Assembly (NCBI GenBank): GCA_947627735.1
Contig: CANQXG010000010.1
Coordinates: 1-64,000, forward strand
Direction of reading: 5' to 3'
DNA length: 64,000 nt
Origin: an uncultured Oscillospiraceae bacterium
Lineage (GTDB): Bacteria > Bacillota > Clostridia > Oscillospirales > Oscillospiraceae
Within the stretch, counting starts at the first letter, position 1. The number at the start of each line of letters is the position of its first letter. This document shows, in pieces, positions 3,383 to 37,995 of this stretch. The notes below the pieces were generated by a model. It was given only the letters and a program-made list of their open reading frames with translations, was not told the DNA's origin and did no database searches. The position numbers and the translations under genes are program-made.

Positions 3383-3446
3383 TGCCCTTCCGGGGTCGGA
3401 CAGCGCCAAGGATGGGCGGTTTTTCCCGGCATTTTCCTGTGGGGAA

Positions 3447-3500
3447 TTACAAAAAAATTACAACTAATTGATAGTTTTTCCCCGCCGGGACTGCCATAAT
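3447..3500 (+). promoter_or_regulatory. Class A promoter: 11-bp-phased TTACA direct repeat plus CATAAT
   Basis: TTACA occurs at 3447 and 3458, an 11-base repeat typical of OmpR/PhoB-family regulators. ACTAATTGATAG and a T-run follow, then CATAAT at 3495-3500. The same block, with identical spacing from TTGATA to CATAAT (21 bases), precedes the other two subfamily-A lipoprotein genes. The position 17 bases upstream of CATAAT holds no good -35, so activation by a bound regulator is likely. Confidence 0.7.
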
Positions 3501-3544
3501 GGGTCCGAAGCCGCCCGGAGAGGCGGGAAAGGAGCGACTATTCT

Positions 3545-4930
3545 ATGAAAAAGACGTATATCGTGCCGCTGCTGGCGGCGCTGACGGTCCTGGCCGCCGG
3601 CTGCCAGGCCACCCCGGAGGAGCCTATCGTGGTGGGAAAGAGCAACGATGCGCTCATCCGCCGGGCGGAGGAGGACACCTCCGGGACCCTGGCGGAGCGG
3701 GTGGCCGCCCCGGAGACCTGCCAGGACAGCTTTTCCAGTACCGACGGGAGGCTGACTGTGACCGTGGACGCGGCCGTCACCGTCCCGGCGGCGGACAGCG
3801 TGCCCATCATCCGCGTCACCGACGGGACCATCACCCAGGAGCAGGCGGACGTGCTGATGGCCTCGCTGGTCCACACGCCCCTGCATGATCCCTCCGAACG
3901 CTCCAAGGACGAGATCATGGAGCAGATCCTGGAATACAAGCAGATGCTGGCCGAGGGGCCTACGGAGGAGGACGTGGGCATCACCTACTATGATGGCAAC
4001 GGCAATGAACTGTCCTGGGAACAGTCGATGCAGCAGGCCATCGACCGGCTCCAGGAGGAATACAGCGCCGCCCCGGAGGAGAATGAGCGGGCCGCCATAT
4101 CCGGTCAATTCGTCGAGAAGGACGGGGCGTCCCTGATCGAGGGCGTCGGCTATTCCGAGGAATACGGCTACGAATCGTTCCAGGTGGGGAATTTCGCGGG
4201 CCTTGGCGCTCACCGTGCGCTCTACGACCGAAACAGCGTCGGCAATGGGGGCTATATCCTCCTTGAACCCACGTACATCCAGTACGCGGACACTGCGGGC
4301 CGGGAGCTGCCCGGACTGACCATCTCCGCCGACGACGCCCGGGCGCTGACCGACCCGGTGGTGGAAAAGCTGGGCATCGAAAATATGGCGTTTTACGCCG
4401 CCCGAAAGGGATATGAGGAGGGAAACGAGCGATGGCCGGAGCGGGATTTCTGGGTCGTGCTGTACACCCGCAGCTTCGGCGGCCTGCCCATCACCTACAC
4501 CTCCGCCACCGGCAGTATGATGACGGACGCGGCGGTGTATAACGAGCCCTGGCGCTATGAGACGCTGGCCTTTTTCGTGGACGACAGCGGCATCGTGGGG
4601 CTGCACTGGGAGGCCCCCTATACCGTCGGGGAGACGGTGACGGAGGACTCCGCCCTGCTGTCCTTCCCGGACGTGGAGGACGTGTTCCGGAAGATGTACG
4701 TGGTCAATAACGACGGCCTGGAGCAGACCGTGCGCGTCACCCGGATATGCCTGGGCTACGCCCGCATCGCCGAGCAGGACCGGGAGGGTTCCGCCATCCT
4801 GGTGCCCGCCTGGGACTTCTTCGGCACGGTCACCGGCGCCGACGGCGTCCTCCGGGGCGGGCCGGACGACAGCCTTCTCACCATCAACGCCATCGACGGG
4901 GCCATCATCGACCGGGGCATGGGCTACTGA
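3545..4930 (+). CDS. Subfamily A lipoprotein A1 of the CQATPE family
   Basis: Predicted surface lipoprotein of 461 residues: a short signal peptide, then lipobox LAAGC and the invariant CQATPE found in all seven paralogues here. Subfamily A marks are GKSNDALIRRAEE, GTLAERVAAPE and a beta-rich DAAVTVP segment. A helical stretch with a KDEI motif and GPTEEDVG follows. The C-terminal end is LVPAWDFFGT and then LTINAIDGAIIDRGMGY. That end recalls PepSY/YycI-like domains, but this is my inference. I do not recognise a defined function; it may belong to an Oscillospiraceae DUF family (possibly DUF6034, not checked). It is preceded by a class A promoter and followed by the two-component operon. Confidence 0.8.
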   Translation: MKKTYIVPLLAALTVLAAGCQATPEEPIVVGKSNDALIRRAEEDTSGTLAERVAAPETCQDSFSSTDGRLTVTVDAAVTVPAADSVPIIRVTDGTITQEQADVLMASLVHTPLHDPSERSKDEIMEQILEYKQMLAEGPTEEDVGITYYDGNGNELSWEQSMQQAIDRLQEEYSAAPEENERAAISGQFVEKDGASLIEGVGYSEEYGYESFQVGNFAGLGAHRALYDRNSVGNGGYILLEPTYIQYADTAGRELPGLTISADDARALTDPVVEKLGIENMAFYAARKGYEEGNERWPERDFWVVLYTRSFGGLPITYTSATGSMMTDAAVYNEPWRYETLAFFVDDSGIVGLHWEAPYTVGETVTEDSALLSFPDVEDVFRKMYVVNNDGLEQTVRVTRICLGYARIAEQDREGSAILVPAWDFFGTVTGADGVLRGGPDDSLLTINAIDGAIIDRGMGY

Positions 4931-4949
4931 TTTAATACAATCTTAAAGT

Positions 4950-4985
4950 TTTTGACGCCGTTTTGATGCCACGGCGGTGTATACT
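4950..4985 (+). promoter_or_regulatory. Class B promoter in front of the two-component operon
   Basis: TTTTGACGCCG (4950-4960) is followed directly by TTTTGATGCCA (4961-4971), an 11-base direct repeat. TATACT lies at 4980-4985. The same repeat with the same spacing precedes the four subfamily-B lipoprotein genes, so the regulator probably controls itself and them. Confidence 0.72.
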
Positions 4986-5032
4986 TGTCCTGCCCCGGCG
5001 GGACCGGGGCGTCATGACAGGGAGGGACGAGC

Positions 5033-5695
5033 ATGAAAAACCGTATCCTGATCGTGGAGGACGACGAGGGCATCTCCAGCGCGGTGGCGCTGAACCTGCG
5101 TGTGGCGGGCTACGAGTGCACGGTGTTCGACGACGGCCAAAAGGCGGCCGAGAGCCTGCAGGCCGACCACGGCTATGACCTGGCGCTGCTGGACATCATG
5201 CTGCCGGGCATCGACGGGTTCGAGCTGTTCGGCTATATGGAGCGCTGGCGCATCCCGGTGATCTACATGACCGCCAAGACCGACTCCGCCTCGGAGATCC
5301 GGGGGCTGCGGGACGGGGCGGAGGACTATGTGGTCAAGCCCTTCGACATCCTCACCCTCATGGTGCGCATGGAGAAGGTGCTGCGCCGGACGGGGCGGCT
5401 GAACACGGTGTACCGGGTCCGGGACGTGGAGGTAAACAGCGAGGCAAGATCCGTGACGAAGGCGGGCGAGCCGGTGGAGCTGCAGCCGCTGGAGTTCAAG
5501 GTGCTGCTGACGCTGCTGCGGTACAAAAACCTCACTGTGTCCCGGGAGCAGCTGCTGGACGAGGTGTGGGGCAGCGGCTACCTGGGGGAGAGCCGGGCGG
5601 TGGATATGAAGATATCCAGCCTGCGCCGGAAGCTGGACCTGGGCGACGCCATCCGGACCATCCCCAAGCAGGGCTACAGACTGGAGGAGCGGTGA
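5033..5695 (+). CDS. OmpR/PhoB-family response regulator
   Basis: 220-residue transcription factor. The receiver domain has acidic EDD at 9-11, phospho-acceptor Asp54 in LLDIMLP, Thr80 in YMTAK and Lys102 in VVKPFD. The C-terminal winged-helix domain contains PLEFKVLLTLLRYKNLTVSR and ends RTIPKQGYRLEER. It is one base upstream of the sensor kinase and surely its partner. The class B box in its own promoter, shared with four neighbouring lipoprotein genes, points to a local regulon with positive autoregulation (inference). OmpR-family proteins normally bind 10-11 bp direct repeats, as seen here. Confidence 0.95.
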   Translation: MKNRILIVEDDEGISSAVALNLRVAGYECTVFDDGQKAAESLQADHGYDLALLDIMLPGIDGFELFGYMERWRIPVIYMTAKTDSASEIRGLRDGAEDYVVKPFDILTLMVRMEKVLRRTGRLNTVYRVRDVEVNSEARSVTKAGEPVELQPLEFKVLLTLLRYKNLTVSREQLLDEVWGSGYLGESRAVDMKISSLRRKLDLGDAIRTIPKQGYRLEER

Positions 5696-5696
5696 G

Positions 5697-7088
5697 ATGA
5701 AGCTGTGGCAGAAGGCGGCGGCGGTCTGCGCCGCGGTGCTGGCGGCGGTGGTGGCGGTGTGCTCCGCCGCCATGCTGCTGTATGCCCGCCACACCATCCT
5801 GGACATGACCCGGCGGCAGGTGCAGACGAAGCAGCGGGACCTGATGACGTCCTTTTCGGAGATGGCCCGGTACTATCTGCTGGACGGGGACTCCGACGAG
5901 GTGCGCCAATCGCTGGTGAACTACTGCTTCTCCCGCTTCGCCGACGAGACGGCGGTGCTGACCCGGGGCGGGGAGACGGTCAGCTCGGCGCTGAGCATCG
6001 ACCCGGCCAAATATGCGGACGCGGGGAAGGGCACGGACCTCTATGAGGGCGTGGTCCGGGACCGGCAGGTGATGATCGCCGCCGAGAGCGTGCGCATACA
6101 GGCGGAGGAGTACGAGGTCTACACGGTCCAGGACGTGACGGACATCCACAGGTCTCTGATGCTGATGGCCCTGATCTTCGCCGGGGTGAGCCTGGGGGGC
6201 ATCGGCGCGGGGGCCGGGGCGGTGATCCTGCTGATGCGCCGGGGGGCCAGGCCCCTGGCGGCGCTGTCCGATGCGGCAAGGCGCATCGCCGGCGGGGAGT
6301 ACGCCATCCGGGCGGCGGTGGATACGCGGGATGAGATCGGCGCCCTGGCGGCGGATTTCAACACCATGGCCGCCGCCGTCCAGACCCGGGTGGAGGAGCT
6401 GTCCGAGACGGCGGAGCGGCAGCGGCTGTTCATCGGCGGGGTGACCCACGAGTTCAAGACGCCCCTGACGGCGCTGCTGCTGCACACCCGGCTGCTGCGG
6501 CAGGTGAATATGACGGAGGCCGAGCGGGACAGGTCTCTGGCCCGGATCGAGCAGCAGTGCCGGTGGCTGGAGCGGATGATCCAGGCCCTTTTGAAGCTCA
6601 TCACCCTCCGGCGGGAGGACGTGGACGCCCGGCCCATCCCCGCCGGGGAGCTGCTGGAGCGGGTGGCGCAGGCCACGGAGGACATGCTGGCCCAGCGGGG
6701 CGCGGCGCTGCGCACGGACAGCGACGGCGGGACGCTGGCGGTGGACCCGGAGCTGATGCAGTCGCTGCTGATGAACCTGGTGGACAACGCCGCCAAGGCC
6801 TATGACCCGCAGGCGGCGGACAAGACGGTGTGGCTGACCGCCCGGGGGAACGTTCTCCAGGTCCGGGACGCGGGCCGGGGCATCCCCCCGCAGGCCCAGG
6901 AGCGGATATTCGAGCCGTTTTACATGGTGGACAAGTCCCGCAGCAAGAAAAACGGGGGCAGCGGCCTGGGCCTGGCGCTGGTGCGCCGCATCGCCGACGC
7001 CCACGGCGCCCGCCTGGAGGTGGACAGCGCCCCCGGCCGGGGCACCACCGTGCGGGTGATCCTGGCATTACAAAAAAATTACAACTAA
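5697..7088 (+). CDS. Membrane sensor histidine kinase
   Basis: 463-residue sensor with TM1 about residues 8-30, an extracytoplasmic sensor region of about 120 residues (32-152), and TM2 about 153-180. A HAMP domain (RPLAALSDAARRIAGGEY) is followed by an H-box GVTHEFKTPLT with His251, an N-box LLMNLVDNAAKA, and G boxes DAGRGIP and GGSGLGLAL. The sensor region has no fold I recognise. The last six residues, LQKNYN, are encoded by the class A operator of the next gene. The regulatory element therefore overlaps the coding end and stop codon. Signal unknown; the surrounding lipoproteins and exporter suggest an envelope or antimicrobial stress (inference). Confidence 0.93.
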   Translation: MKLWQKAAAVCAAVLAAVVAVCSAAMLLYARHTILDMTRRQVQTKQRDLMTSFSEMARYYLLDGDSDEVRQSLVNYCFSRFADETAVLTRGGETVSSALSIDPAKYADAGKGTDLYEGVVRDRQVMIAAESVRIQAEEYEVYTVQDVTDIHRSLMLMALIFAGVSLGGIGAGAGAVILLMRRGARPLAALSDAARRIAGGEYAIRAAVDTRDEIGALAADFNTMAAAVQTRVEELSETAERQRLFIGGVTHEFKTPLTALLLHTRLLRQVNMTEAERDRSLARIEQQCRWLERMIQALLKLITLRREDVDARPIPAGELLERVAQATEDMLAQRGAALRTDSDGGTLAVDPELMQSLLMNLVDNAAKAYDPQAADKTVWLTARGNVLQVRDAGRGIPPQAQERIFEPFYMVDKSRSKKNGGSGLGLALVRRIADAHGARLEVDSAPGRGTTVRVILALQKNYN

Positions 7089-7121
7089 TTGATAGTTTTT
7101 TACCGCGCCCGGCACCATAAT
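7068..7121 (+). promoter_or_regulatory. Class A promoter overlapping the 3' end of the kinase gene
   Basis: TTACA repeats start at 7068 and 7079 (11 bases apart). ACTAATTGATAG and a T-run follow, then CATAAT at 7116-7121. The repeats lie within the last codons and stop of the histidine kinase. The block is almost identical to those at 3447 and 14840. Confidence 0.7.
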
Positions 7122-7151
7122 GGACCTACCGTGAAAAAGGAGGAACAGACC

Positions 7152-8585
7152 ATGAACGGAAAAAGACCCTTTGTTTTCGCGCTGGCCCTGACCATGGCTC
7201 TGGCCGCCGGCTGCCAGGCCACCCCGGAGGAACCCATCGTGTCCGGCAAGAGCAGCGACGCGCTCATCGAGAGAGCGGCGGAGCAGACCGCCGGCACCCT
7301 GGCGGAGCGGGTGGCCGCCCCGGAGAGGTACACCGGCTCCGCCGCCAGCGCCGACGGGGAGATGACCGTGACCATCGACGCGGCGGTGACCGTCCCGGAG
7401 GCGGACCGGGCGCCCATCTTCCGGGTGGTGCCGGCGAACATCACCCAGGAGCAGGTGGACGTGCTGATGGACATGCTGGTGCAGGGGGAGTTGTACGACT
7501 ACGACCTGCCCAAGAGCAAGCAGGAGCTGACCGAGGAGCTGCTGCAGCTGAAGCAGGAGCAGGCCCAGGGACCCTCGGAGGAGGACGCGGGCGCCGTGTG
7601 GGTCACCGAGGACGGCGCCCTGGGCTGGGAGGAATATGTCCAGCAGCGCATCGACCAGCTCCAGGAGGAGATCGCCAAGGCCCCGGAGACGGTGACGCCC
7701 ACCGTGTCCACCGGACAGTTCCAGGTCTATACGGACGACGGCTTCATGCGCGCCGGCGGGGAGAATACCACCGATGAGTACGGCTGGGAGGCCCTGATGG
7801 CGGAGGCGGGGGAGGGCATGGAATACAACTCCCGCGCCAGCTACGTCCGCGCGCCGGAGAGGGGATTCTTCCTGAGCTATGTGACGGCGGACAACACCGA
7901 AGACCTGCCCTACACCTATGAGCTGGACGTGTCCAAAATACCGGACATCGCCGTCACCCAGGAGCAGGCCCAGGCCCTGTGCGAGCCGGTGGTGGAGGCC
8001 CTGGGCATCCCGGACATGCGCCTTTACTCCGCCGTGAAGAAATACGGCGGCGGACCCAACGCGCCCCGGTGCTGCTGGGAGCTGGAGTACACCCGCTGCC
8101 TGGAGGGCATCCCCATCGCCTACTCCTCCGTGGAGCCGGGCTATATCGGGACCTACGAGGGCGACCCTGAGAACTTCGAGTTCAAGCCGCCCTGGGACAA
8201 CGAGAAGCTGATGTTCCTGGTCAACGACGAGGGGATCGTGGGCATGAAATGGGACTGCCCCTATACGATTCAGGAAACGGTCACCGAGGACGCGGCGCTG
8301 CTGCCCTTCGACGACATCATGGACATCTTCGAGAAGATGTTCGGGGTGGAAAACGACGGAAAATCCCTGGACGCCACGGTGGACTCCGTCCGCCTGAGCT
8401 ACATGCGCGTCAGCGAGCAGAACAAGAGCTATACGGGTCTGCTGGTGCCGGTGTGGGATTTTTACGGCACGGAGCAGCGGCACATGGACAGCGGGGAGAG
8501 TTATACCTCCCGTGACCCGGAAAGGAGCCTGATGACCATCAATGCCGTGGACGGCACCGTCATCGACCGGGCGATGGGTTACTGA
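7152..8585 (+). CDS. Subfamily A lipoprotein A2 of the CQATPE family
   Basis: 477-residue lipoprotein starting MNGKRPFVF, chosen because AGGAGG lies eight bases upstream and a signal peptide follows. Lipobox LAAGC and CQATPEEP come first, then GKSSDALIERAAEQ, GTLAERVAAPE and DAAVTVPEA. The region ITQEQVDVLMDMLV leads into a Glu/Gln/Leu-rich helix (KQELTEELLQLKQEQAQ). The protein ends LVPVWDFYGT and MTINAVDGTVIDRAMGY. It is very similar to A1 and A3 in order and motifs. Function unknown. Placement directly behind the kinase, under a class A promoter, suggests a role in sensing or in the envelope response. Confidence 0.8.
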   Translation: MNGKRPFVFALALTMALAAGCQATPEEPIVSGKSSDALIERAAEQTAGTLAERVAAPERYTGSAASADGEMTVTIDAAVTVPEADRAPIFRVVPANITQEQVDVLMDMLVQGELYDYDLPKSKQELTEELLQLKQEQAQGPSEEDAGAVWVTEDGALGWEEYVQQRIDQLQEEIAKAPETVTPTVSTGQFQVYTDDGFMRAGGENTTDEYGWEALMAEAGEGMEYNSRASYVRAPERGFFLSYVTADNTEDLPYTYELDVSKIPDIAVTQEQAQALCEPVVEALGIPDMRLYSAVKKYGGGPNAPRCCWELEYTRCLEGIPIAYSSVEPGYIGTYEGDPENFEFKPPWDNEKLMFLVNDEGIVGMKWDCPYTIQETVTEDAALLPFDDIMDIFEKMFGVENDGKSLDATVDSVRLSYMRVSEQNKSYTGLLVPVWDFYGTEQRHMDSGESYTSRDPERSLMTINAVDGTVIDRAMGY

Positions 8586-8605
8586 GATCGGGAAAATCTT
8601 AAGAA

Positions 8606-8641
8606 TTTTGATGCCGTTTTGATGCAGAGCGGGTGTATGCT
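8606..8641 (+). promoter_or_regulatory. Class B promoter of lipoprotein B1
   Basis: TTTTGATGCCG (8606-8616) abuts TTTTGATGCAG (8617-8627), and TATGCT lies at 8636-8641. A CTTAAG palindrome sits just upstream. Followed by AAAGGAGGCATACGCC and the ATG of B1. Confidence 0.72.
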
Positions 8642-8668
8642 GAGGCCGCTTGAAAGGAGGCATACGCC

Positions 8669-10132
8669 ATGAAAAGACTTGTTGCCCTGCTCCTGACGGC
8701 GGCCATACTGGGCCTGGCGGGCTGCCAGGCCACGCCGGAAAAAGGCGCCGTCACCAGCAAGAATGACGGCGCCTTTGAATCTGCCCTGGAGGCCGCGCCC
8801 GCCCCCGCGGCGGAGGGCGCCGGCGGCGCAGGACAGGAATACACGGACAGCTTTGAAAACGCCAGCGGCTCCATCCGCTACGCGCTGGATCTGACCGCCC
8901 CGGCGGTGGAAACGGCCCTGCCGGTGCTGCGGGTCCGGCCCATGGAGATCACGTCGGAGACGGCGGAGCGGGTGGCCCGGGCCATCTTCGGCGACGGGGA
9001 GATCTACGAGTACTCCACCCAGCACACAAAATCGGAGCTGGAGGCCGCCATATTGGCCTGCCGGGAGAGCATCGCCGACTGGGACGCGCTGGTGGAGCGG
9101 TGCGGCGATGAGAGCGGGGCGGAGGTATATAAATCCACCCAGGAGGAGCGCATCGCCGCCATGGAGCAGGCATACGCCGACGCCCCGGAAACGGTGGATA
9201 GGGCGCTCTGCGACTGGCAGTTCCACCCCGGCTCCTATTACAGCGACGTCACCCATGGCCAAATCACGGACATGGGCCAGCAGGTGCTCAAGGCCAGCGC
9301 CGCGGTGGACGGCATCCCCTTCGAGTACACGGTGGTGAACTGCGACGGCGGGGAGCTGCGGGAGCACTATATCATGGCCGGCCCCGACAGTGAGGAGTCC
9401 GGCTTCGGGGACGCCGCCTACGCCGACAGGGGCGTGCCCGGGGACCCGGACACCCTGCGGCAAAAGGCCCTGGCCATCGCGGAGGCGCTGGACGCCGGGT
9501 CCTGGCGTGTGGCGTCCGACTATGAGTACGCCGTCTTTCACAACATGCCCGCGGAGGCCCCCTCCATCACCCGCGTGCTCCTGACCCGGGACTGGGGCGG
9601 GCTGGCCGTTACCTGCCACATGGGGCCGTCCAACGAGGCGGCCTACGGCCCCCAGTACCCCTACGAGCAGCTGGAGATCACCTTCAACGGCGACGCGCTG
9701 GTGGACTTTTCCTACTTGAGCGCCCTGGAGGCGGTGGAAACGGTGAACGAAAATGTTCAGACCCTGCCCTTTGCCCACATCCTGGCCGCCGCCGAGGAGC
9801 AGATGCGGCGAAACGGCGCGGCGGACCCCCTCACGGGGGAGATGGCCCCGGCGCCGGTGGACGGCAGCTATGAGAGGATCACCGTGGACGGCGTGCAGCT
9901 GGGCCTGACGCGCATCTTCATCAAGGACAACACCACGGAGTATTACCTGGTGCCCACCTATACCTTCTACGGCACCGCCGTCAGCTGCAGCGCCGACGGC
10001 ACGGCCATGGAGGACTTCACCTACACCGACGAAACGGGCCGGACCATCACCTTCCCCAACAAGACGGCGGTGGAGCTGGCGGTCATCAACGCAGTGGATG
10101 GCAGCGCCATCGACGTGAGCAAGGGGTATTGA
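8669..10132 (+). CDS. Subfamily B lipoprotein B1 of the CQATPE family
   Basis: 487-residue lipoprotein: signal peptide MKRLVALLLTAAILGLAGC, then CQATPEKG. Subfamily B marks are VTSKNDGAFESALEA and an Ala/Pro-rich spacer. VLRVRPMEITSETAERVAR and IFGDGEIYEYS follow, then a helical stretch with TKSELEAAILACRESIADWD. The C-terminal end is RIFIKDNTTEYYLVPTYTFY, then GTAV and AVINAVDGSAIDVSKGY. It aligns along its length with the A subfamily, so all seven are homologues. Function unknown. First of four tandem B genes, each with its own class B promoter and no terminator between them. Confidence 0.8.
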   Translation: MKRLVALLLTAAILGLAGCQATPEKGAVTSKNDGAFESALEAAPAPAAEGAGGAGQEYTDSFENASGSIRYALDLTAPAVETALPVLRVRPMEITSETAERVARAIFGDGEIYEYSTQHTKSELEAAILACRESIADWDALVERCGDESGAEVYKSTQEERIAAMEQAYADAPETVDRALCDWQFHPGSYYSDVTHGQITDMGQQVLKASAAVDGIPFEYTVVNCDGGELREHYIMAGPDSEESGFGDAAYADRGVPGDPDTLRQKALAIAEALDAGSWRVASDYEYAVFHNMPAEAPSITRVLLTRDWGGLAVTCHMGPSNEAAYGPQYPYEQLEITFNGDALVDFSYLSALEAVETVNENVQTLPFAHILAAAEEQMRRNGAADPLTGEMAPAPVDGSYERITVDGVQLGLTRIFIKDNTTEYYLVPTYTFYGTAVSCSADGTAMEDFTYTDETGRTITFPNKTAVELAVINAVDGSAIDVSKGY

Positions 10133-10146
10133 GCAAATCTTAAGAA

Positions 10147-10182
10147 TTTTGATGCCGTTTTGATGCAGGGCGGGTGTATGCT
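10147..10182 (+). promoter_or_regulatory. Class B promoter of lipoprotein B2
   Basis: TTTTGATGCCG (10147-10157) abuts TTTTGATGCAG (10158-10168), and TATGCT lies at 10177-10182. CTTAAG is just upstream. The block starts 14 bases after the stop of B1. Confidence 0.72.
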
Positions 10183-10208
10183 GAGGCCGCTTGAAAGGAG
10201 GCATACAC

Positions 10209-11642: not shown

Positions 11643-11683
11643 GCTTAAAGAAAACTTAAACATTCTTAAGGGGTTCTTAAGAA

Positions 11684-11719
11684 AAATGATGCAGTTTTGA
11701 TGCAGGACGGGTGTATGCT
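11684..11719 (+). promoter_or_regulatory. Class B promoter of lipoprotein B3
   Basis: AAATGATGCAG (11684-11694) abuts TTTTGATGCAG (11695-11705), and TATGCT lies at 11714-11719. The first half-site is altered relative to the other copies. Two CTTAAG-type elements lie upstream instead of one, so regulation may differ in strength. Confidence 0.68.
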
Positions 11720-11746
11720 GAGGCCGTTTGAAAGGAGGCATACGCC

Positions 11747-13243: not shown

Positions 13244-13257
13244 GCAAATCTTAAGAA

Positions 13258-13293
13258 TTATGATGCCGTTTTGATGCAGGGCGGGTGTATGCT
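13258..13293 (+). promoter_or_regulatory. Class B promoter of lipoprotein B4
   Basis: TTATGATGCCG (13258-13268) abuts TTTTGATGCAG (13269-13279), and TATGCT lies at 13288-13293. CTTAAG is just upstream. Followed by AAAGGAGG and the ATG of B4. Confidence 0.72.
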
Positions 13294-13319
13294 GTGACCG
13301 CCTGAAAGGAGGCATACAT

Positions 13320-14828: not shown

Positions 14829-14839
14829 CCGGGCAATAA

Positions 14840-14893
14840 TTACAAAGAAATTACAACTAATTGATAGTTTTTTACGTCCTCCCGGCCCATAAT
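14840..14893 (+). promoter_or_regulatory. Class A promoter of lipoprotein A3 and probably the downstream ABC genes
   Basis: TTACA at 14840 and 14851 (11 bases apart). ACTAATTGATAG and a T-run follow, then CATAAT at 14888-14893. Spacing is identical to the other two class A blocks. No terminator or new promoter is evident until 21949, so this promoter may drive A3 and all six transporter-associated genes. Confidence 0.7.
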
Positions 14894-14920
14894 GGGGCCA
14901 TAGAAAAGGAGGAACGCCCT

Positions 14921-16339
14921 ATGAACAGCAGACGCATGAAGACCATTCTGGCGCCGGCCCTGGCCCTGACCATGGTGCTGGCCGCCGGCTGCCAGGCCAC
15001 CCCGGAGGACCCCATCGTGTCCGGCAAGAGCAGCGACGCGCTCATCGAGCGGGCGGCGGGGGAGACGTCCGGGACCCTGGCGGAGCGGGTGGCCGCCCCG
15101 GAGACCTATCAGTCCAGCGCGTCCAGCCAGGACGGAAGGCTGACTGTGACCATCGACGCGGCGGTGACCGTCCCCGCGGCGGAGAAGGTGCCCATCATCC
15201 AGGTCACGGCTTCGGAGATCAGCCAGGAGCAGGCAGATGTCCTGCTGGAAAAGCTGGTCCAAAGCACGCTCCACTCACCCGATCAGCCTCTGACCAAGGA
15301 CGAGATCACGCAGGCGCTGCTGCTCGCCGAGAAGCTGCTGGCCCAAGGTCCCAGTGAGGCCGACGAAGAGTCGTATCAGCTCTACCTGGCGGAGGGCCGG
15401 GAGGTGTGGGAGCAGGCCCTGCAGGACAGGATCGACTATTATACAGACATATATGACGATGCTCCAGAGGCGGTAGAATCAAAACCCATCTCCGGCGTTT
15501 TTTCAGACCGGGGCGACGGCATGATGCAGATCGAGGGCGTGAATCGCGCAAAGGAGATCGGCTACGAGGCCATTCGGATCGCTGACTATCCAGACGGCCA
15601 GGGATTCAGTTCGGCATTTTACAGCCGGAATATTGCAGACGACGGCCTGGATATTTCGTATGATTCGGCGCAGGACATGGCCTTATATGATCCCGATACG
15701 GATCTTTCCCAGGTGCCGGATGTGACGGTCACAGAGGGTGAAGCGCAGGGGCTTTGCGACGGCGTGGTGGAGGCGCTGGCCATCCCCGGCATGGGCTGCT
15801 GGTCCGTCCGCAAGACATACAGCAGCAGCCCCCTGATCCCCACCCGGTGCTGCTGGGAGGTGCGCTATACGCGGCAGATGAACGGTACGCCCATCACTTA
15901 TACGAATGACTCTTACGTTTCCATGAATGTCACCTCCAGCGGGTCGTATCAGGTCCCCTGGCCCTACGAATCCCTGGCGTTCTACGTCAACGACGACGGG
16001 ATCGTGGGCATGAAGTGGATGTCGCCCTATGCCGTGGGCGAGGCGGTGACGGAGGACTCCGCGCTGCTGCCCTTCGCCGACGTGATGGACATCTTCGAGA
16101 AGATGTATGTGGTGGACAACGACGGGACGGAGATGGATGTGACCGTGAAGGACATCCGTCTGGGATACGCCCGGGTGCTGAAGCAGGACGAGATCGGCGT
16201 GGGACTGCTGGTGCCGGTGTGGGACTTTTTCGGCACAGTCACGGACCAGGACGGCGCGGTCCGTGACGATCCGACGGTCACTCTTTTGACCATCAACGCC
16301 ATCGACGGGGCCGTCATAGACAGAGCGGCGGGGTACTGA
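14921..16339 (+). CDS. Subfamily A lipoprotein A3 of the CQATPE family
   Basis: 472-residue lipoprotein starting MNSRRMKTIL after AAGGAGGAACGCCCT. Lipobox LAAGC, CQATPEDP, GKSSDALIERAAGE, GTLAERVAAPE and DAAVTVPAA place it in subfamily A. The helical region contains TKDEITQALLLAEKLLAQGP. The end is LVPVWDFFGT and LTINAIDGAVIDRAAGY. The central part uses somewhat more A/T-ending codons (about 15420-15760) than its neighbours. It precedes the first ABC permease by 25 bases and is probably cotranscribed with it, directly linking the lipoprotein family to the exporter. Confidence 0.8.
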   Translation: MNSRRMKTILAPALALTMVLAAGCQATPEDPIVSGKSSDALIERAAGETSGTLAERVAAPETYQSSASSQDGRLTVTIDAAVTVPAAEKVPIIQVTASEISQEQADVLLEKLVQSTLHSPDQPLTKDEITQALLLAEKLLAQGPSEADEESYQLYLAEGREVWEQALQDRIDYYTDIYDDAPEAVESKPISGVFSDRGDGMMQIEGVNRAKEIGYEAIRIADYPDGQGFSSAFYSRNIADDGLDISYDSAQDMALYDPDTDLSQVPDVTVTEGEAQGLCDGVVEALAIPGMGCWSVRKTYSSSPLIPTRCCWEVRYTRQMNGTPITYTNDSYVSMNVTSSGSYQVPWPYESLAFYVNDDGIVGMKWMSPYAVGEAVTEDSALLPFADVMDIFEKMYVVDNDGTEMDVTVKDIRLGYARVLKQDEIGVGLLVPVWDFFGTVTDQDGAVRDDPTVTLLTINAIDGAVIDRAAGY

Positions 16340-16364
16340 AAACCCGGCGCACGCAGGAGGCAGC

Positions 16365-17129
16365 ATGAGAAACACCATCACATCCGGCATACGCCAGAGC
16401 CTGTGCTCGGCGCGGTTCGTCCTGGGGGCGGCGTTCATCGCCCTGGCGGTATTCTTGTCCTCCGTGGACGCCGCCGCCCAGGCCTTCCGGGCCGAGGAGC
16501 CGCTGGCCTACGGCTTTCACGGCCGATTCGTGCTGGACGCGCTGGGGTCGGACACCATCACCATCTGCCTGCCCATCGTGTGCGCGCTGCCCTTCGCGGC
16601 CAGCTATGTGGACGACGTGAAGACCGGGTTTTTGAAGCTGTACATCCACCGCACCAGCCAGCGGGCCTATATCCTGGGCAAGGCAGGGGGGTGCCTGGTG
16701 TCCGGCGGGGCCGTGATCGTGCTGGGACTGTGGCTGGCCTTCGGGATATCGGCGGCGCTGTTCAAGCCCCTGGAGGGGCCGCTGCCGCCGGAAACGGAGG
16801 ACCCCCAGTACGCCCTGGAGCTGCTGCGGGACTGCGGGCTGATCTTCCTGTCCGGGGGATTCTGGGCGCTGTTCGGCATGACCATGAGCGCGTTCATGGC
16901 CAGCCGGTACATCGCCTACGCCGCGCCGTTCATCTTCTACTACGTGCTCATCATCCTGTGCGAGCGGTACTTCACGGACCTGTACGTGATCTATCCCAAG
17001 GCGTGGATGGTGCCGGGGCAGGAGTGGAGCATGGGCCGGTGGGGGCCGGCGCTGGTGATCGGAGAGATGATCATACTGACGGGCCTGGGCTTTGCCGGGG
17101 CGGTGAGAAGGAAGGTGAGGGGACTGTGA
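16365..17129 (+). CDS. ABC-2-type permease, first subunit
   Basis: 254-residue integral membrane protein with about six hydrophobic segments: near 18-36, 63-85, 105-130, 155-178, 183-205 and 226-245. The layout, N-terminal TM with a long first loop then paired helices, fits ABC-2 exporter permeases such as the LanE/LanG or BcrB types. It has no ATPase domain. The stop overlaps the GTG start of the second permease by four bases. With two permeases and one functional ATPase, the set resembles lantibiotic or bacitracin immunity exporters, but the substrate is unknown. Confidence 0.75.
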   Translation: MRNTITSGIRQSLCSARFVLGAAFIALAVFLSSVDAAAQAFRAEEPLAYGFHGRFVLDALGSDTITICLPIVCALPFAASYVDDVKTGFLKLYIHRTSQRAYILGKAGGCLVSGGAVIVLGLWLAFGISAALFKPLEGPLPPETEDPQYALELLRDCGLIFLSGGFWALFGMTMSAFMASRYIAYAAPFIFYYVLIILCERYFTDLYVIYPKAWMVPGQEWSMGRWGPALVIGEMIILTGLGFAGAVRRKVRGL

Positions 17130-18022
17130 ACACGGCGCGGCAGATCATGGCCGTGGTGGCCTATAACTTCCGCCAGTGGCGGCGCAATCCCCGCATCGCC
17201 GTGACCTTCGCCCTGGCGTTCATACTGAGCTTCCTTCTCAGCGACAAGGCGGTGACCTTCGCCCAGGCCCACAAGACCACCATGCAGCTGGCCGAGCCGT
17301 TCATCTGGACCTTTGGCGACAGCGACTCCATACTGCTGGTGAGCCTGCTGCTGATACTGCTGTTCACGGACATGCCCTTTCTCACCGCCGGGACGCCCTT
17401 TTTCCTCATGCGCATCGACCGGCGCAAGTGGATCACAGGCCAGCTGGTGTACACGGCCCTGGCCACGGCGGTGTTTCTGGCGTTCGTGCTGGCCTCCACC
17501 GTGGCGGTCAGCGTCCGCCAGTCCTACATCGGCGACGTGTGGAGCGAAACGGCGGCCATACTGGGCTACTCCGGCGCGGGCAAGGAGATCGCCCTGCCGG
17601 CGCTGGTGAAGACTTTGGAGATGAGCTTTCCCTACCGGTGCATGTTCACCATCTTCGGGCTGATGCTGTGCTACTCGGTGGTGATGGTGTTCATCATGCT
17701 GGTGTTCAACCTCACCCGTGGCGGCCCGGCGGGCATCATAAGCGGCTTTGCCTTCAGCGTGTACGGCCTGCTTTTGAAGCCAGCCACCGTCAAGACCCTG
17801 TTCCAGCTGCCCGACGAGCTGGCCTACAAGGCCAACGTGGCGGTGGGGTGGCTGTCGCCCCTGAATCAGGCCACCTATCACATGCACAACTTCGGCTATG
17901 ACCTGCTGCCCCGGCTGTGGCAGTCCTTTGTGATCTTCGCCGGGCTGATGGCGGCGGGGTATCTTCTGGCCCTGCGGGCCATACGCCGATACAATTTCGT
18001 GTTCACAGGAACGGAGGGATGA
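17126..18022 (+). CDS. ABC-2-type permease, second subunit
   Basis: 298-residue membrane protein. The GTG start at 17126 sits in a GTGA overlap with the previous stop; the longer upstream frame is a shadow of that gene. Hydrophobic segments are seen near 22-38, 70-90, 110-135, 175-200, 205-225 and 268-287, and the C-terminus is basic (RAIRRYNFVF). Together with the preceding subunit it probably forms the membrane channel of a heterodimeric ABC-2 exporter. Substrate unknown. Start codon and overlap indicate translational coupling. Confidence 0.75.
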   Translation: MNTARQIMAVVAYNFRQWRRNPRIAVTFALAFILSFLLSDKAVTFAQAHKTTMQLAEPFIWTFGDSDSILLVSLLLILLFTDMPFLTAGTPFFLMRIDRRKWITGQLVYTALATAVFLAFVLASTVAVSVRQSYIGDVWSETAAILGYSGAGKEIALPALVKTLEMSFPYRCMFTIFGLMLCYSVVMVFIMLVFNLTRGGPAGIISGFAFSVYGLLLKPATVKTLFQLPDELAYKANVAVGWLSPLNQATYHMHNFGYDLLPRLWQSFVIFAGLMAAGYLLALRAIRRYNFVFTGTEG

Positions 18023-18025
18023 CCT

Positions 18026-18670
18026 ATGGCCGTCAGCGCCATCAGCGTCCAGGACGTATCCAAATCCTTCGGGGACACCCAGGTACTGCGCCATGTCAGC
18101 CGGGAGTTCGAGGAGGGGCGGGTCCACGGCATCGTGGGCAACAACGGCAGCGGCAAGACCGTGCTGATGAAGTGCATATGCGGCTTTCTCCCCCCCAGCG
18201 AGGGGCGCATCACCGTCCGGGGAAAGCAGGTGGGCCGGGACATGGACTTTCCCGACGACACCGGCATCATCATCGAGACGCCGGGCTTCCTGCCGGGACT
18301 GACCGGGGTGAGGAATCTGGAGCTGCTGGCCAGCCTGCGCCGACGGGTGGACCGGGAGGGCATCCGGGACACCATCCGCCGGGTGGGCCTGGACCCGGAC
18401 AGCAAAAAGCCCGTGGGGAAGTACTCCCTGGGCATGCGCCAGCGGCTGGGCCTGGCCCAGGCCATCATGGAGAACCCCTCCATCCTCATCCTGGACGAGC
18501 CGTTCAACGGCCTGGACAAAAACGGCGTGGCCCACATGCGCCAGGTGATCAAGGGCCTGCGGGAGCAGGGCAAGACCATCATCCTGGCCAGCCACAACCA
18601 GATGGACATCGACGAGCTGTGCGACACCGTGTGCGAGATGGACGCGGGGGTCATGACCATGGTGAAGTGA
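18026..18670 (+). CDS. ABC transporter ATP-binding protein
   Basis: 214-residue nucleotide-binding subunit. Walker A is GNNGSGKT (residues 38-45), the signature is YSLGMRQRLG, Walker B is ILILDEPFNGLD, and the switch His is in ASHNQ. The SLGMRQ form of the signature is typical of BcrA/LanF-like exporter ATPases. It lies three bases after the second permease, so it energises that pair. Its stop overlaps the next start by one base (TGATG). This is the only intact ATPase in the seven-gene run. Confidence 0.92.
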   Translation: MAVSAISVQDVSKSFGDTQVLRHVSREFEEGRVHGIVGNNGSGKTVLMKCICGFLPPSEGRITVRGKQVGRDMDFPDDTGIIIETPGFLPGLTGVRNLELLASLRRRVDREGIRDTIRRVGLDPDSKKPVGKYSLGMRQRLGLAQAIMENPSILILDEPFNGLDKNGVAHMRQVIKGLREQGKTIILASHNQMDIDELCDTVCEMDAGVMTMVK

Positions 18671-19287
18671 TGGAGCCGGTGCTGTGGATGAAGGACGTCT
18701 CCCTCCGGGACCGGGAAGGCCGGGTGCTGCTGGATCTGCCGGCGCTGGCGGTCATGCCGGGGGAGCGGGTGCGGGCGCTGGCCCAGCGGGAACGCTTCGC
18801 CGCCCTGGCCCGGCTGGCCGGGGGACTTGTCAGGCCGGAGAGGGGCGAGGTGATCCTCCGGGGCGGCGCGGGATATCTGCCGGCGGAGCCGGGGTCCTGG
18901 GAGGACATGACCGTGCTGGAAAATGCTGCCCTGCCCCTGACGGCGGCGGGCATGCCCCGACGGGAGCGGGAGCAGCGGGCCATGGACACGCTCGCGGCGC
19001 TGGGCGTCGGCTACGCCGCCCACGCCTACCCCGGGAGCCTGTCGCCCTGCGAGGGGCGGCTGGCGGCCCTGGCCCGGGCGCTCGTCGGCTCGCCGGCGCT
19101 GCTGCTGATGGAGGAGCCGGCGTTCATGCTGGACGAAAAGGAAACGGACCGCTTTTTCCGGGCCTGGGAACAGCTGTGGCGGCGGGACCGGTTCGCGGTG
19201 CTGTTCTGCGCCTGGGACAATGCCGCCCCGGCGGCGGACAGGACCGTTACACTTGGAAGGGAACATACAGGAGGCCAAATGCTATGA
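18670..19287 (+). CDS. ATPase-like protein of the ABC family with lost nucleotide-binding motifs
   Basis: 205 residues that follow the ABC ATPase layout but without its catalytic residues. Where Walker A should be, the sequence is GERVRALAQRERFAALARL (31-49), with no GxxGxGK. The signature is SLSPCEGR instead of LSGGQ. Walker B is ALLLMEEP, with Asp replaced by Glu. The H-loop position reads FCAWDN. The frame is open and flanked by four-base and one-base overlaps, so it is kept as a coding gene rather than a decayed one. A regulatory or structural partner role for the ATPase or the FtsX-like permease is an inference. Confidence 0.72.
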   Translation: MEPVLWMKDVSLRDREGRVLLDLPALAVMPGERVRALAQRERFAALARLAGGLVRPERGEVILRGGAGYLPAEPGSWEDMTVLENAALPLTAAGMPRREREQRAMDTLAALGVGYAAHAYPGSLSPCEGRLAALARALVGSPALLLMEEPAFMLDEKETDRFFRAWEQLWRRDRFAVLFCAWDNAAPAADRTVTLGREHTGGQML

Positions 19288-20861
19288 AAAGGACCCTATG
19301 CGCGCTTCTGGCGCTGATGATGGTGTGGACGGGCGGCGTCTTCGCCCTGGCGGCGGAGGAGCCGGCGGATGGGACGCCGGCGCCGGAGGCTACGGACGAA
19401 CCTGCGGAGCAGCCCTCTCCCAGCCCGGAGCCGAGCACGGAACCCAGCCCCAGTCCCAGTCCGTCGCCAAGCCCCAGCCCGTCGCCAAGCCCCACGGCCC
19501 CGCCCATACTGCCCGACGGGTCGGTGCGACTGAGCATCGACGACGAGAACGTGTACGAGGGCATGGACCGGGCCTATAAGGACGGCTATGTGCCCAAGGT
19601 GTCCGGCGGGACGGTGACGGTGGTGCTGCCCCTGGTGGCCGCCGGGACGGTGTGGGGCGACAGGATCACCGTCACCCCCCGGCTGGAGGAGAACGTGCCC
19701 ATCCAGCGGAGGAACTACCAAAAGACCTTCACCCTCAAGGACAACCCGGTGAACGTCACCGGCGCGGAGGACGAGATCGTGGAGCGGGTGCCGTCCTATC
19801 TGGTGCGGTTCGACCTGCCCCTGACCTCCGACAGGCAGAACGGGACCTATCCCATCACCCTGGAGGTGCGCGCCCTGGACGAAAACGGCGGGGAGGTGGC
19901 CGAGAGCTACACCTGCTACGTGACCGTCACCGACGGGAAGAAGCCCGCCTCCGACAGCGGGGGTTTTTACGGCGGCGGCGGGGCCATGCCCACGGAGAAG
20001 CCGGTGTCCGACCCCCGGGTGCTGGTGAGCAAGTATTCATCCAGCGCCGCGCCCGCCACCGCGGGGGAGGATTTCACCGTCACCGTGACCCTGGCCAACA
20101 CCAGCCAGAGCGAGAACGTGCAGAACCTGCTGGTGACCGTGTCCGCCTCCAGCCCCCATCTTGTGCTGCGAAACGACTCCAGCTCCATCTTCCTGGGGGA
20201 TCTGAAGGCCGGCGGGACCCGGGAGCTGGAGCTGAAGTACACCACGGACCTGGACACCCCCGCCCAGCGGTATGACATCAGCCTGGCCATGGAGTTCGAC
20301 GACGCCAACGCCATGAGCATGGCCTCCTCCGGCACCGTCAGCGTGGAGGTGGTCCAGCCGGTGAACGTGGAGCTGAGTCCCTTCACCGTGCCGAACCAGA
20401 TCAACGCCGGGGAGACGGTGCAGCTGTCGTTCCAGGTGATGAACCTGGGCCGGGCGCCGGTATACAACGTGCGGGTGGAGCTGGATGTACCGGGCCTGAG
20501 CCCCTCCGGCAACGCCTTTATCGGTAACATGGAGCCGGGCACCTCCGCCGAGCAGACGCTGAACGTGTTCGCCGGGATGAAGGACGAAGGCGAGCGCTAC
20601 GGCTACACCTCCGGCGTGGCGCGGCTCATCTATGAGGACGCCGGCGGCCGGGAGTACACCGCCGAGGCCCACGCCGGCACGGAGATACTGGAGCTGGTGA
20701 TCGCCGGGGCGGACGACGCCCAGGCCCAGGAGGAGGCCCGTCAGGAGGAGGCCCGGAACATCCAGTGGTGGGTGTTCTTGGCCGCCGGCGGCGCGGCCGC
20801 AGCCGCGGTGGGGCTGGGCCTGTACCTGAAAAAGCGGACCGGGGGCCGGCACAGCCGATGA
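19284..20861 (+). CDS. Secreted, C-terminally membrane-anchored protein with Pro/Ser linker and Ig-like (CARDB-type) domains
   Basis: 525 residues. The signal peptide MKRTLCALLALMMVWTGGVF is followed by an acidic/Pro-rich stretch and a PSPSPSP linker (about 43-72), then two to three beta-sandwich domains. One shows VTVTLANTSQSENVQNLLVT and another VQLSFQVMNLGRAPVYNVRV, typical of CARDB/DUF11-like folds. A short acidic helix, a single TM at about 497-516 and a basic tail KKRTGGRHSR end the protein. It is therefore exposed outside and anchored by its C-terminus. Start ATGA overlaps the previous stop. It may present or receive substrate for the neighbouring permeases; exact role unknown. Confidence 0.75.
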   Translation: MKRTLCALLALMMVWTGGVFALAAEEPADGTPAPEATDEPAEQPSPSPEPSTEPSPSPSPSPSPSPSPSPTAPPILPDGSVRLSIDDENVYEGMDRAYKDGYVPKVSGGTVTVVLPLVAAGTVWGDRITVTPRLEENVPIQRRNYQKTFTLKDNPVNVTGAEDEIVERVPSYLVRFDLPLTSDRQNGTYPITLEVRALDENGGEVAESYTCYVTVTDGKKPASDSGGFYGGGGAMPTEKPVSDPRVLVSKYSSSAAPATAGEDFTVTVTLANTSQSENVQNLLVTVSASSPHLVLRNDSSSIFLGDLKAGGTRELELKYTTDLDTPAQRYDISLAMEFDDANAMSMASSGTVSVEVVQPVNVELSPFTVPNQINAGETVQLSFQVMNLGRAPVYNVRVELDVPGLSPSGNAFIGNMEPGTSAEQTLNVFAGMKDEGERYGYTSGVARLIYEDAGGREYTAEAHAGTEILELVIAGADDAQAQEEARQEEARNIQWWVFLAAGGAAAAAVGLGLYLKKRTGGRHSR

Positions 20862-21949
20862 AACGGGCGGATTATCTGGCGCTGTCCCTGCGGGGCCTGC
20901 GCCGGGGCATGAACGGTCTGGCCGCCCTGCTCACGTCGGCTGCCGCCATGGCCATGTGTTTTTCCGGGGCCATGCTGGCCGCCGTCCGCGCGGAGGAGGC
21001 GGCCCCCTGCGAGCTGACGGTCACGGGACCGGGCTATCTGGCCATCACGGAGCAGACCGTCCAGGACATCCGCGCCGTGGACGGGGTGGTGGACGCGACC
21101 GGCACAGTGGAGGTCCCGGCGGGCCTTGCCTGCGCCGAGCACACCGCTTCCCTGACCCTGGTGGGGCTGGATGGGGACTACCTGCGGGGGGACTATATCC
21201 TGGGCGGGGCCTTTCCCGCCGGCGGGGCCATGCCCTGGCTGACCCTCACCCGGGCCGCCGCCCGGTCCTTCGTCCGGGAGGGGGATGACGCCCGCCATGG
21301 GGCGGACTACCTGCCGGAGCTGGACTGGCTGGGCGGGGCGTTCACCCTCACGGCGGGGCAGAGCGTCCTGTCCGCCCGGGTCAGCGGCCTGATGGAGGGG
21401 GAGGACCCGGTAGGCTATATGGACCTGGCCGCAGCCCGGCGCATCCTCCAGAGCCAGGGCGGGACCGGCGCCTTCACCGGCGTGCTGGTGCGGGTGAAAA
21501 ACGCCGGGACGGCGGAGGCCGTGTCCGCGGCGGTGGCCGCCATGGGCTTTGCCGCGGCGGAGCGGGACACAGGCCGCCAGCAGGCGTGGGACGCCCGGAT
21601 GCGGGAGGCGATATATCTGGCGGCGGTGGCGGCGGTCAGCCTCGCCTGCGCCGCCATGGTCCGGCTGACCGGGGCGGCCCGGGACCGGGAGGGCCGCCGC
21701 CGGCGGGCGGAGGCGCTGCGCTGGGCCGGCATGAGCAGGCGTGCCGTGGAGGGACTGGACCTGCTGGGCGGGCTGTGGCTGGGCCTGGCGGGAGGGGCGG
21801 CGGGCGTCTGCGCCCACTATACCGCCGCGGCCCTGGCGGGACTGGGCGGGGCGGAGAGCGCCTTCGCCCTGACCTTGCCGCCGGCGCTGATACCGCTGCC
21901 CGCGGCGGTATGCGCCCTGGCCGGGTCGCTGGGGTCCCGGAGACTGTGA
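20858..21949 (+). CDS. FtsX-like permease
   Basis: 363 residues starting MKRADYLALSLRGLRRGMNG; the start overlaps the previous stop by four bases. It has one N-terminal TM (about 19-40), an extracytoplasmic domain of about 200 residues, and three TMs after residue 245. The linker RRRRAEALRWAGMSRRAVEG before the third TM is the FtsX/MacB family hallmark. No MacB-type ATPase accompanies it, only the degenerate ATPase-like protein two genes upstream. It may act as a signal transducer or mechanotransmitter rather than a pump (inference). Last gene of the run. Confidence 0.75.
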   Translation: MKRADYLALSLRGLRRGMNGLAALLTSAAAMAMCFSGAMLAAVRAEEAAPCELTVTGPGYLAITEQTVQDIRAVDGVVDATGTVEVPAGLACAEHTASLTLVGLDGDYLRGDYILGGAFPAGGAMPWLTLTRAAARSFVREGDDARHGADYLPELDWLGGAFTLTAGQSVLSARVSGLMEGEDPVGYMDLAAARRILQSQGGTGAFTGVLVRVKNAGTAEAVSAAVAAMGFAAAERDTGRQQAWDARMREAIYLAAVAAVSLACAAMVRLTGAARDREGRRRRAEALRWAGMSRRAVEGLDLLGGLWLGLAGGAAGVCAHYTAAALAGLGGAESAFALTLPPALIPLPAAVCALAGSLGSRRL

Positions 21950-21950
21950 A

Positions 21951-21993
21951 AAGACAAAAAACACCCGCCTGTGACGGCCGTCACAGGCGGGTG
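21951..21993 (-). terminator. Perfect 16-bp palindrome serving as purA terminator
   Basis: CACCCGCCTGTGACGG (21962-21977) is followed at once by its exact complement (21978-21993). On the minus strand the stem is followed by TTTTTTGTCTT, giving a rho-independent terminator for purA. On the plus strand no T-run follows, so read-through from the FtsX-like gene may be only partly stopped. Confidence 0.85.
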
Positions 21994-22010
21994 CAGGTAT
22001 GTGCGGGCGG

Positions 22011-37832: not shown

Positions 37833-37907
37833 TCACAGGACCATCCGCTCCCAAAGACACGCCAGCACGTACACGCCGATGACCGCCAGTATCAGCATGC
37901 CGCCCAT
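37833..37907 (-). CDS. Possible 24-residue single-TM membrane peptide
   Basis: Short frame MGGMLILAVIGVYVLACLWE then RMVL, hydrophobic for about 18 residues and ending with a charged tail. The ATG has GGGAGG seven bases upstream (on the minus strand), a strong Shine-Dalgarno. A class B regulator box in the correct orientation lies about 67 bases upstream. Too short to confirm by homology. The combination of Shine-Dalgarno, hydrophobic profile and regulator box makes it better than a chance frame. Function unknown. Confidence 0.45.
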   Translation of the reverse strand: MGGMLILAVIGVYVLACLWERMVL

Positions 37908-37950: not shown

Positions 37951-37995
37951 CCGGCATCGTTTCTGCAACATATCTGCATCAAAACGGCATCATTT
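37951..37995 (-). promoter_or_regulatory. Class B regulator box between the small membrane peptide and the rrf2 gene
   Basis: On the minus strand AAAATGATGCCG is followed by TTTTGATGCAG, matching the two-component system's class B repeat, about 33 kb from that system. A third half-site GATGCCG (37958-37952) lies exactly 22 bases, two repeat units, further on. The usual TATGCT -10 is absent at the standard distance. The box might drive the minus-strand peptide or overlap and repress the rrf2 promoter. Confidence 0.6.

Follow-up and report, generated by a model that had tools for sequence, protein, structure and literature searches.

Gene content of the array

What is the function of a gene array in which seven homologous lipoproteins accompany a response regulator, a sensor kinase and genes of the ATP-binding cassette (ABC) transporter type? 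This question is raised by positions 3446-21949 of contig CANQXG010000010.1 (assembly GCA_947627735.1) from an uncultured gut bacterium of the Oscillospiraceae, of which the first 64,000 nucleotides, referred to as the window, were analyzed. The region harbors seven lipoproteins of Pfam family DUF6034 (A1-A3 and B1-B4), a response regulator (RR), a histidine kinase (HK) and six transporter-type genes (Table 1). With moderate confidence we read it as a self-regulated envelope-stress module, in which the lipoproteins would modulate the kinase and the output would be a Cpr/LanFEG-like transporter. All genes named in an earlier note on this DNA were found where it had placed them. The seven lipoprotein genes cover 12.8 kb rather than the 11 kb given there, and the lack of clear breaks that it described holds only from A3 to the FtsX-like gene. 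Tight packing is confined to this run (A3-P1-P2-ATPase-pseudoATPase-Ig-FtsX), in which one 25-nt gap is followed by overlaps or a 3-nt gap and at whose end lies a two-way terminator-like stem. The array as a whole is interrupted, since every lipoprotein gene is preceded by a repeated element of its own.

DUF6034 lipoproteins

The Pfam search proposed in the earlier note assigned all seven lipoproteins to DUF6034 (PF19499) with 111-289 bits (E 1.1e-85 to 9.4e-32; family cut-off 27 bits). Each contains the lipobox cysteine, the sequence CQATPE after the lipobox and the motif LVPxxxFxGT. The terminal INAxDGxxID, likewise ascribed to all of them, is present in six and missing from B2, which ends ...SVIQ. 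Pairwise identity amounts to 45-53% inside group A and 39-45% inside group B, but only 23-29% between the groups, and the split is supported by 100/100 in the protein tree, with a long-branch warning for some rows from outside the window. In the window, A and B are protein groups and also regulatory classes. In the tree, each window lipoprotein clusters with orthologues from different species; the seven paralogues are therefore old, and a recent tandem amplification was rejected.

A structure was predicted for A3 (pLDDT, predicted local distance difference test, 88.4) and showed a YycH/YycI/YpeB fold. YycH and YycI (WalH/WalI) influence the WalK kinase from the extracellular side. The likeness lies in the predicted fold, known here from this one model. 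By sequence, the best window lipoprotein reached 23.4 bits with the YycI hidden Markov model (HMM; curated cut-off 29.7), hhalign of the DUF6034 alignment against one YycI sequence gave a probability of 0.5%, and in a reverse search of 1,850 open reading frames (ORFs) plus one YycI with a C-terminal DUF6034 HMM, YycI obtained E 0.12. Unlike YycH and YycI, the DUF6034 proteins are multi-copy, linked to ABC genes and lipid-anchored rather than membrane-spanning; all seven have the lipobox cysteine instead of the N-terminal membrane helix. Searches by sequence for solved relatives at E≤10 gave three chance-level matches for the DUF6034 profile and one for P2; the FtsX-like protein had one match at E≤1, and two ABC-side lipoproteins had none. 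NisI and SpaI had no row in the structural comparison of the A3 model, which proves nothing either way. DUF6034 was not named in the open-licence PubMed Central (PMC) literature searched.

Four M56 (BlaR1) peptidase proteins of the genus, 829-939 amino acids (aa) long, also have a DUF6034 stretch as their outer part (L056:1335-4079, L057:8440-10929, L058:7044-9638 and L059:8329-11148), two of the four stretches scoring under the DUF6034 cut-off; in L056 a Big_2 domain lies behind the DUF6034 stretch. This recalls the signalling proteases BlaR1 and MecR1, whereas the system in the window uses a kinase.

Conservation of the system

DUF6034 was matched in 13 of 25 genomes of the genus, the source genome included, and in none of 15 other genomes searched alongside. 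G011, G017 and G020 each have the complete order RR-HK-lipoproteins-P1-P2-ATPase-pseudoATPase-Ig-FtsX on one contig, as does G006 with only one lipoprotein. Parts of the system are spread over several contigs in G008, G002 and G007; the 20 kb fetched from G003 contain lipoproteins and ABC genes but no kinase pair, and in G009 DUF6034 occurs only as part of an M56 protein. Four minimal loci (L048-L051, from G012, G013, G018 and a second locus of G017) consist of RR, HK and one DUF6034 gene. The absence of ABC genes is meaningful only in G012 and G018, because the contigs of the other two end soon after. The DUF6034 proteins of these four loci have a signal segment and no cysteine at the lipobox position. 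L050 and L051 lie near nadE/purA, genes that flank the array in the window, and the L051 copy contains an in-frame stop.

Relatives beyond the genus were collected from a genome_contigs scan (84,980 species by its description), which gave 271 confirmed stretches; the best 80 yielded 77 loci, sorted by title and similarity into 12 genus-like loci and 65 others. As the scan selected for the INA-DG motif, its conservation there follows from the selection; some assemblies contribute several loci, and most genus-like loci come again from the genus genomes described above. The lipobox pattern was present in 187 of the 204 DUF6034 ORFs of these loci, the other 17 including fragments, masked sequence and variants. 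Genes were called at ≥170 bits for RR, ≥110 for HK and ≥200 for the ATPase. Two-component or ABC genes of the system were present in 11 of the 12 genus-like loci and near the lipoproteins in 60 of the 65 others (RR and HK in 49, P2 and ATPase in 35), the exceptions being L122, L127, L159, L169 and L170. In 17 of the 65 a two-component gene was found without P1, P2 or ATPase in the fetched stretch, several of these being cut by contig ends. HK and lipoprotein genes were co-oriented in all 51 non-genus loci having both (gap <500 nt in 44), and permease and lipoprotein genes in 41 of 43 (gap <500 nt in 39). The frequency of these neighbors together with the invariable co-orientation with the kinase indicates a real conserved system. 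Its gene order, which the earlier note had left to be checked, is thus kept in related and in distant genomes, with the lipoproteins mainly beside kinase and/or ABC genes.

The relatives extend to Lachnospiraceae, Christensenellaceae, Bacillus niameyensis, which harbors the whole gene set (L113), and Ktedonobacter; the ABC genes of Ktedonobacter (L166) and Clostridium zeae (L153) are divergent. Between 1 and 9 DUF6034 matches occurred per fetched locus. DUF6034 was matched in 3 of 394 genomes of an order sample and in 4 of 398 of a phylum sample, three of the latter below the cut-off. P2 exceeded 400 bits in 3 of 388 order-sample genomes, the same three, and the remaining 31 P2-positive genomes reached at most 120 bits. 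In four loci with weak P2, an ORF beside the ABC genes was a weak relative of the DUF6034 C-terminus in the search of 1,850 ORFs plus one YycI (L181, E 2.6e-6; L186, 2.5e-4; L207, 6.6e-4; L208, 0.0028). The corresponding ORF of L211 obtained 27.8 bits with Pfam DUF6034, yet E 2.1 with our C-terminal model. L211 (G213 contig 21, 3156-9126) carries this DUF6034-like lipoprotein together with a divergent ABC triplet; an M56 protein and a BlaI-like repressor are encoded next to them, and the 12 kb fetched showed no two-component system. P2 had no match in 72,556 plasmid records, and plasmid-borne cargo was rejected as an explanation.

Promoter boxes

The A-box, ATTACAA-N4-ATTACAA with a period of 11 bp, precedes A1, A2 and A3. 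At ≤1 mismatch the A element has three sites in the 2.36-Mb assembly (86% complete). All three are located in this array and the reversed control gave none, which excludes chance. On the other strand the box reads TGTAAT-N5-TGTAAT and agrees with what we take to be the WalR consensus, TGTWAH-N5-TGTWAH, which the WalRK literature searched did not contain. A relaxed box, [AT]T[AT]A[CG]A-N5-[AT]T[AT]A[CG]A, derived from the genus sequences, was counted ≤150 nt before genes, with shuffles as controls. Within the genus it precedes 9 of 11 RR genes (shuffles 0.34) and 14 of 52 lipoprotein genes (shuffles 0.5), although in four of these 14 the match is a TTAAGA repeat of a B gene, which may be a different element. 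Among the far loci it was found before 14 of 49 RR genes (shuffles 0.36, maximum 2) and 20 of 149 lipoprotein genes (shuffles 0.66, maximum 3). Exact A sites numbered 13 across 14 further genus genomes (reversed control 1), and nine of them lie upstream of RR or DUF6034 genes belonging to the system. Judged from these counts and the likeness to the WalR consensus, the regulator of the system probably binds the relaxed A-type box, and a second regulator may share it. The other four A sites (G015, G016, G018 and G019; L224-L227) adjoin a gene that we read as htpG-like. A secreted or lipoprotein-like ORF lies beyond the box in three of them, while the contig ends in L224; G015, G016 and G019 have no DUF6034 match.

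The B-box, a tandem TTGATGC, lies before each of B1-B4 and, at one mismatch, before the regulator gene. Of the 52 genus lipoprotein genes, 10 carry it upstream, and all 10 belong to type B (shuffles 0.24, maximum 2). No far gene has it, and the B genes of G008, G011 and G017 also lack it. At ≤1 mismatch the assembly holds two other sites, one before a FemAB-family gene on contig 5 and one at window position 37976. The former is located about 70 nt before the gene (L072:5193-6308, minus strand). The FemAB homologues of G002 and G003 show an exact tandem GATGC upstream (3 of 13 FemAB loci including our own, by eye), and in the other loci the box is degenerate or absent. The site at 37976 precedes a 24-codon frame (37833-37907, minus strand) for a single-helix membrane peptide and is accompanied by extra degenerate 11-bp repeats. 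A looser pattern gave three further assembly sites, none followed to a promoter. Not counted were C7:45841, which lies inside a frame, C3:63084, which has no evident gene at promoter distance, and C14:5919 and C33:3596, which match the looser pattern only.

Kinase, regulator and transporter

Regulator and kinase form an ordinary OmpR/PhoB-class pair. They score far below the WalR/YycF and WalK equivalog cut-offs (131.9 versus 340 bits and 152 versus 725 bits), and Pfam finds no PAS domain in the kinase, in which it differs from WalK. Between its two hydrophobic segments the kinase has an outer domain of about 115 residues, whereas Bce-type kinases have no sizeable outer domain.

An E-loop in place of the Q-loop is a mark of lantibiotic-protection transporters. 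The window ATPase has such a loop (GIIIETP). Of 48 distinct ATPases, 47 have a glutamate at this position (45 read by script, 2 by eye), the exception being one second ATPase of L117 with N. The best NCBIfam family of the window ATPase is TIGR03740, at 172.6 bits below the cut-off of 309.75. Pfam gives no match for P1 or P2 themselves; two of 28 P1 members match ABC2_membrane_2 (best 7.3e-4), and no ABC-2 model is among the matches of 33 P2 members. Since P1 and P2 form a single ORF of 579-588 aa in L129, L138, L151 (twice), L161 and L173, they probably form the two halves of one transporter. The pseudoATPase lacks G-x4-GK[ST] in all 10 genus or genus-like copies read, including that of the window. 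Its B. niameyensis counterpart is nearer canonical (SGKET), and the L119 match is a canonical ATPase, probably another gene.

Excerpts of PMC5786555 describe Cpr-type operons as a two-component system with one ATPase and two permeases. The array shares this layout with CprABC-type (CprABCK-R, LcrSR-LctFEG) and NisRK-FEG modules, and also an ATPase that has an E-loop and is nearest the lantibiotic-protection family, and a lipoprotein nearby (LanI; CD1348 beside cprABC). It differs in that the lipoproteins are DUF6034 proteins of YycH/YycI-like predicted fold, numbering up to 8 in genus-like locus L105, in its additional pseudoATPase-Ig-FtsX unit, and in that its ATPase scores below the TIGR03740 cut-off. 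Cpr/LanFEG permeases have about 240-250 aa and six helices each; P1 has 254 aa and about six hydrophobic segments, P2 298 aa and about five. Bce-type peptide-detoxification modules likewise combine a two-component system with ABC transporter genes and an FtsX-like permease. The permeases of this type listed in the same excerpts have 626-651 aa, whereas the FtsX-like permease in the window is short (363 aa) and adjoins a pseudoATPase. The earlier statement that no such combination is known is not supported, as the two-component and ABC part is similar to CprABC/LanFEG modules and the lipoproteins to YycH/YycI. The array combines known kinds of components with an unusual, putative multi-lipoprotein input layer.

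Table 1. Features of the array in the window (RR, response regulator; HK, histidine kinase).
Feature	Position	Strand	Evidence or remark
A-box promoter element of A1 (ATTACAA-N4-ATTACAA, then TTGATAG ... CATAAT)	3446..3502	+	direct repeat; assembly scan
A1, DUF6034 lipoprotein, 461 aa	3545..4930	+	PF19499 E 8.7e-76
B-box before regulator gene (11-bp tandem TTGATGC, 1 mismatch)	4952..4969	+	pattern scan
RR, OmpR/PhoB class	5033..5695	+	Response_reg + Trans_reg_C
HK, sensor histidine kinase	5697..7088	+	two hydrophobic segments, ~115-aa outside domain, HAMP, HisKA, HATPase
A-box promoter element of A2, overlapping kinase gene end	7067..7123	+	direct repeat; assembly scan
A2, DUF6034 lipoprotein, 477 aa	7152..8585	+	PF19499 E 1.1e-85
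B-box of B1	8608..8625	+	direct repeat; pattern scan
B1, DUF6034 lipoprotein, 487 aa	8669..10132	+	PF19499 E 1.7e-43
B-box of B2	10149..10166	+	direct repeat; pattern scan
B2, DUF6034 lipoprotein, 477 aa	10209..11642	+	PF19499 E 1.6e-33
B-box of B3	11686..11703	+	direct repeat; pattern scan
B3, DUF6034 lipoprotein, 498 aa	11747..13243	+	PF19499 E 2.7e-44
B-box of B4	13260..13277	+	direct repeat; pattern scan
B4, DUF6034 lipoprotein, 502 aa	13320..14828	+	PF19499 E 9.4e-32
A-box promoter element of A3, likely also driving ABC genes	14839..14895	+	direct repeat; assembly scan; gene packing
A3, DUF6034 lipoprotein, 472 aa	14921..16339	+	PF19499 E 3.8e-77; structure model pLDDT 88.4
P1, ABC-2-like permease, 254 aa	16365..17129	+	~6 hydrophobic segments; fused to P2 in some relatives
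P2, permease, 298 aa	17126..18022	+	~5 hydrophobic segments; better conserved than P1
ABC ATPase, intact, E-loop GIIIETP	18026..18670	+	ABC_tran; TIGR03740 172.6 bits
Pseudo-ATPase, Walker A lost	18670..19287	+	best NCBIfam matches LolD and FtsE, over C-terminal half
Secreted, C-terminally anchored protein, CARDB/NEW3 Ig-like domain	19284..20861	+	CARDB E 9.2e-8; hydrophobic segment 493-515
FtsX/MacB-like permease, 363 aa	20858..21949	+	weak Pfam FtsX 13.5 bits (cut-off 25.5); 3 hydrophobic segments
Two-way terminator-like stem between FtsX-like gene and purA	21961..21994	.	15-pair stem

Possible function

In an envelope-stress module, the DUF6034 lipoproteins, with their predicted YycH/YycI/YpeB fold, would be held outside the membrane by the lipobox cysteine. 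They may bind an envelope signal such as an antimicrobial peptide, lipid II or a wall fragment, and may raise or lower the activity of the neighboring kinase, by analogy to the effect of YycH and YycI on WalK. The conserved boxes suggest that the phosphorylated regulator would bind tandem WTTACA-like sites before its own operon, as in most genus relatives, and before the A-type lipoprotein genes, and the A3 promoter would also read into the P1-P2-ATPase and pseudoATPase-Ig-FtsX genes. From its likeness to Cpr/LanFEG, the P1-P2-ATPase transporter may clear a peptide from the membrane or a lipid target, with the pseudoATPase-Ig-FtsX unit as a putative companion envelope complex. The B-type lipoproteins would represent a second class with a box of their own. 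As this box is common to the FemAB wall-branching gene, the same or another regulator may tie the array to wall remodelling. Of the roles considered in the earlier note, multi-lipoprotein sensing gains from the predicted fold, the WalR-like boxes and the M56-DUF6034 proteins. Antimicrobial resistance is suggested by likeness of the genes: the E-loop, TIGR03740 as best family at a score below its cut-off, and the Cpr-like layout.

The transporter also suits a different division of labor, in which the lipoproteins are LanI-like sponges that bind peptides, the ABC transporter expels these peptides and the kinase senses them directly. LanI, LanFEG and RK genes form a known layout according to excerpts of PMC5786555, the ATPase has the E-loop, and many diverged paralogues would suit different peptides. 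The predicted lipoprotein fold is that of YycH/YycI/YpeB, however, DUF6034 stretches are joined to a signalling protease, and the loci with a two-component gene but no transporter gene (several cut by contig ends, as noted above) speak against immunity, which we therefore consider unlikely. Self-immunity of a lantibiotic producer was rejected for the genus, as no LanC-like gene was found in 12 genus genomes at E≤1e-5, which points to resistance or signalling there; LanC-like genes are present in two of four named non-genus genomes examined, Clostridium zeae and Ktedonobacter. The predicted fold and the WalR-like boxes would also agree with a wall-growth homeostat, a WalRK/HI-like circuit that reads the state of peptidoglycan and whose ABC genes move a lipid, a wall hydrolase or a lipoprotein, and the B-box on the FemAB gene and the FtsX/LolD-like second unit fit such a circuit as well. 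An essential homeostat would hardly be as patchy as this system, and the family closest to the first ATPase is that of lantibiotic protection, so that this explanation, too, seems improbable. That the copies merely vary the surface, as antigens or by phase variation, with an incidental linkage to kinase and ABC genes, would account for the variable number of DUF6034 matches between loci. This is very improbable, as the copies are old orthologous lines common to several species, every window copy has one of the two repeated boxes and the linkage persists across distant lineages.

In a bolder and more tentative reading, the array might be a plug-in sensor system. One kinase would read several lipid-anchored paralogues of YycH/YycI fold, each with its own box and each responding to another antimicrobial or wall fragment, and species would add or lose sensing channels through lipoprotein genes while the kinase stays unchanged; the same sensor domain would also be wired to M56 proteases.

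The analysis provides a testable role for DUF6034 and defines a conserved gene set together with its putative operator boxes. It connects a predicted fold, familiar chiefly from the WalK pathway, with a large lipoprotein family whose genes in Clostridia lie next to those of kinases and ABC transporters. Should the paralogues respond to different signals, gene duplication would provide one kinase with new inputs, and this would bear on how commensals meet antimicrobial peptides of their host and of other microbes.

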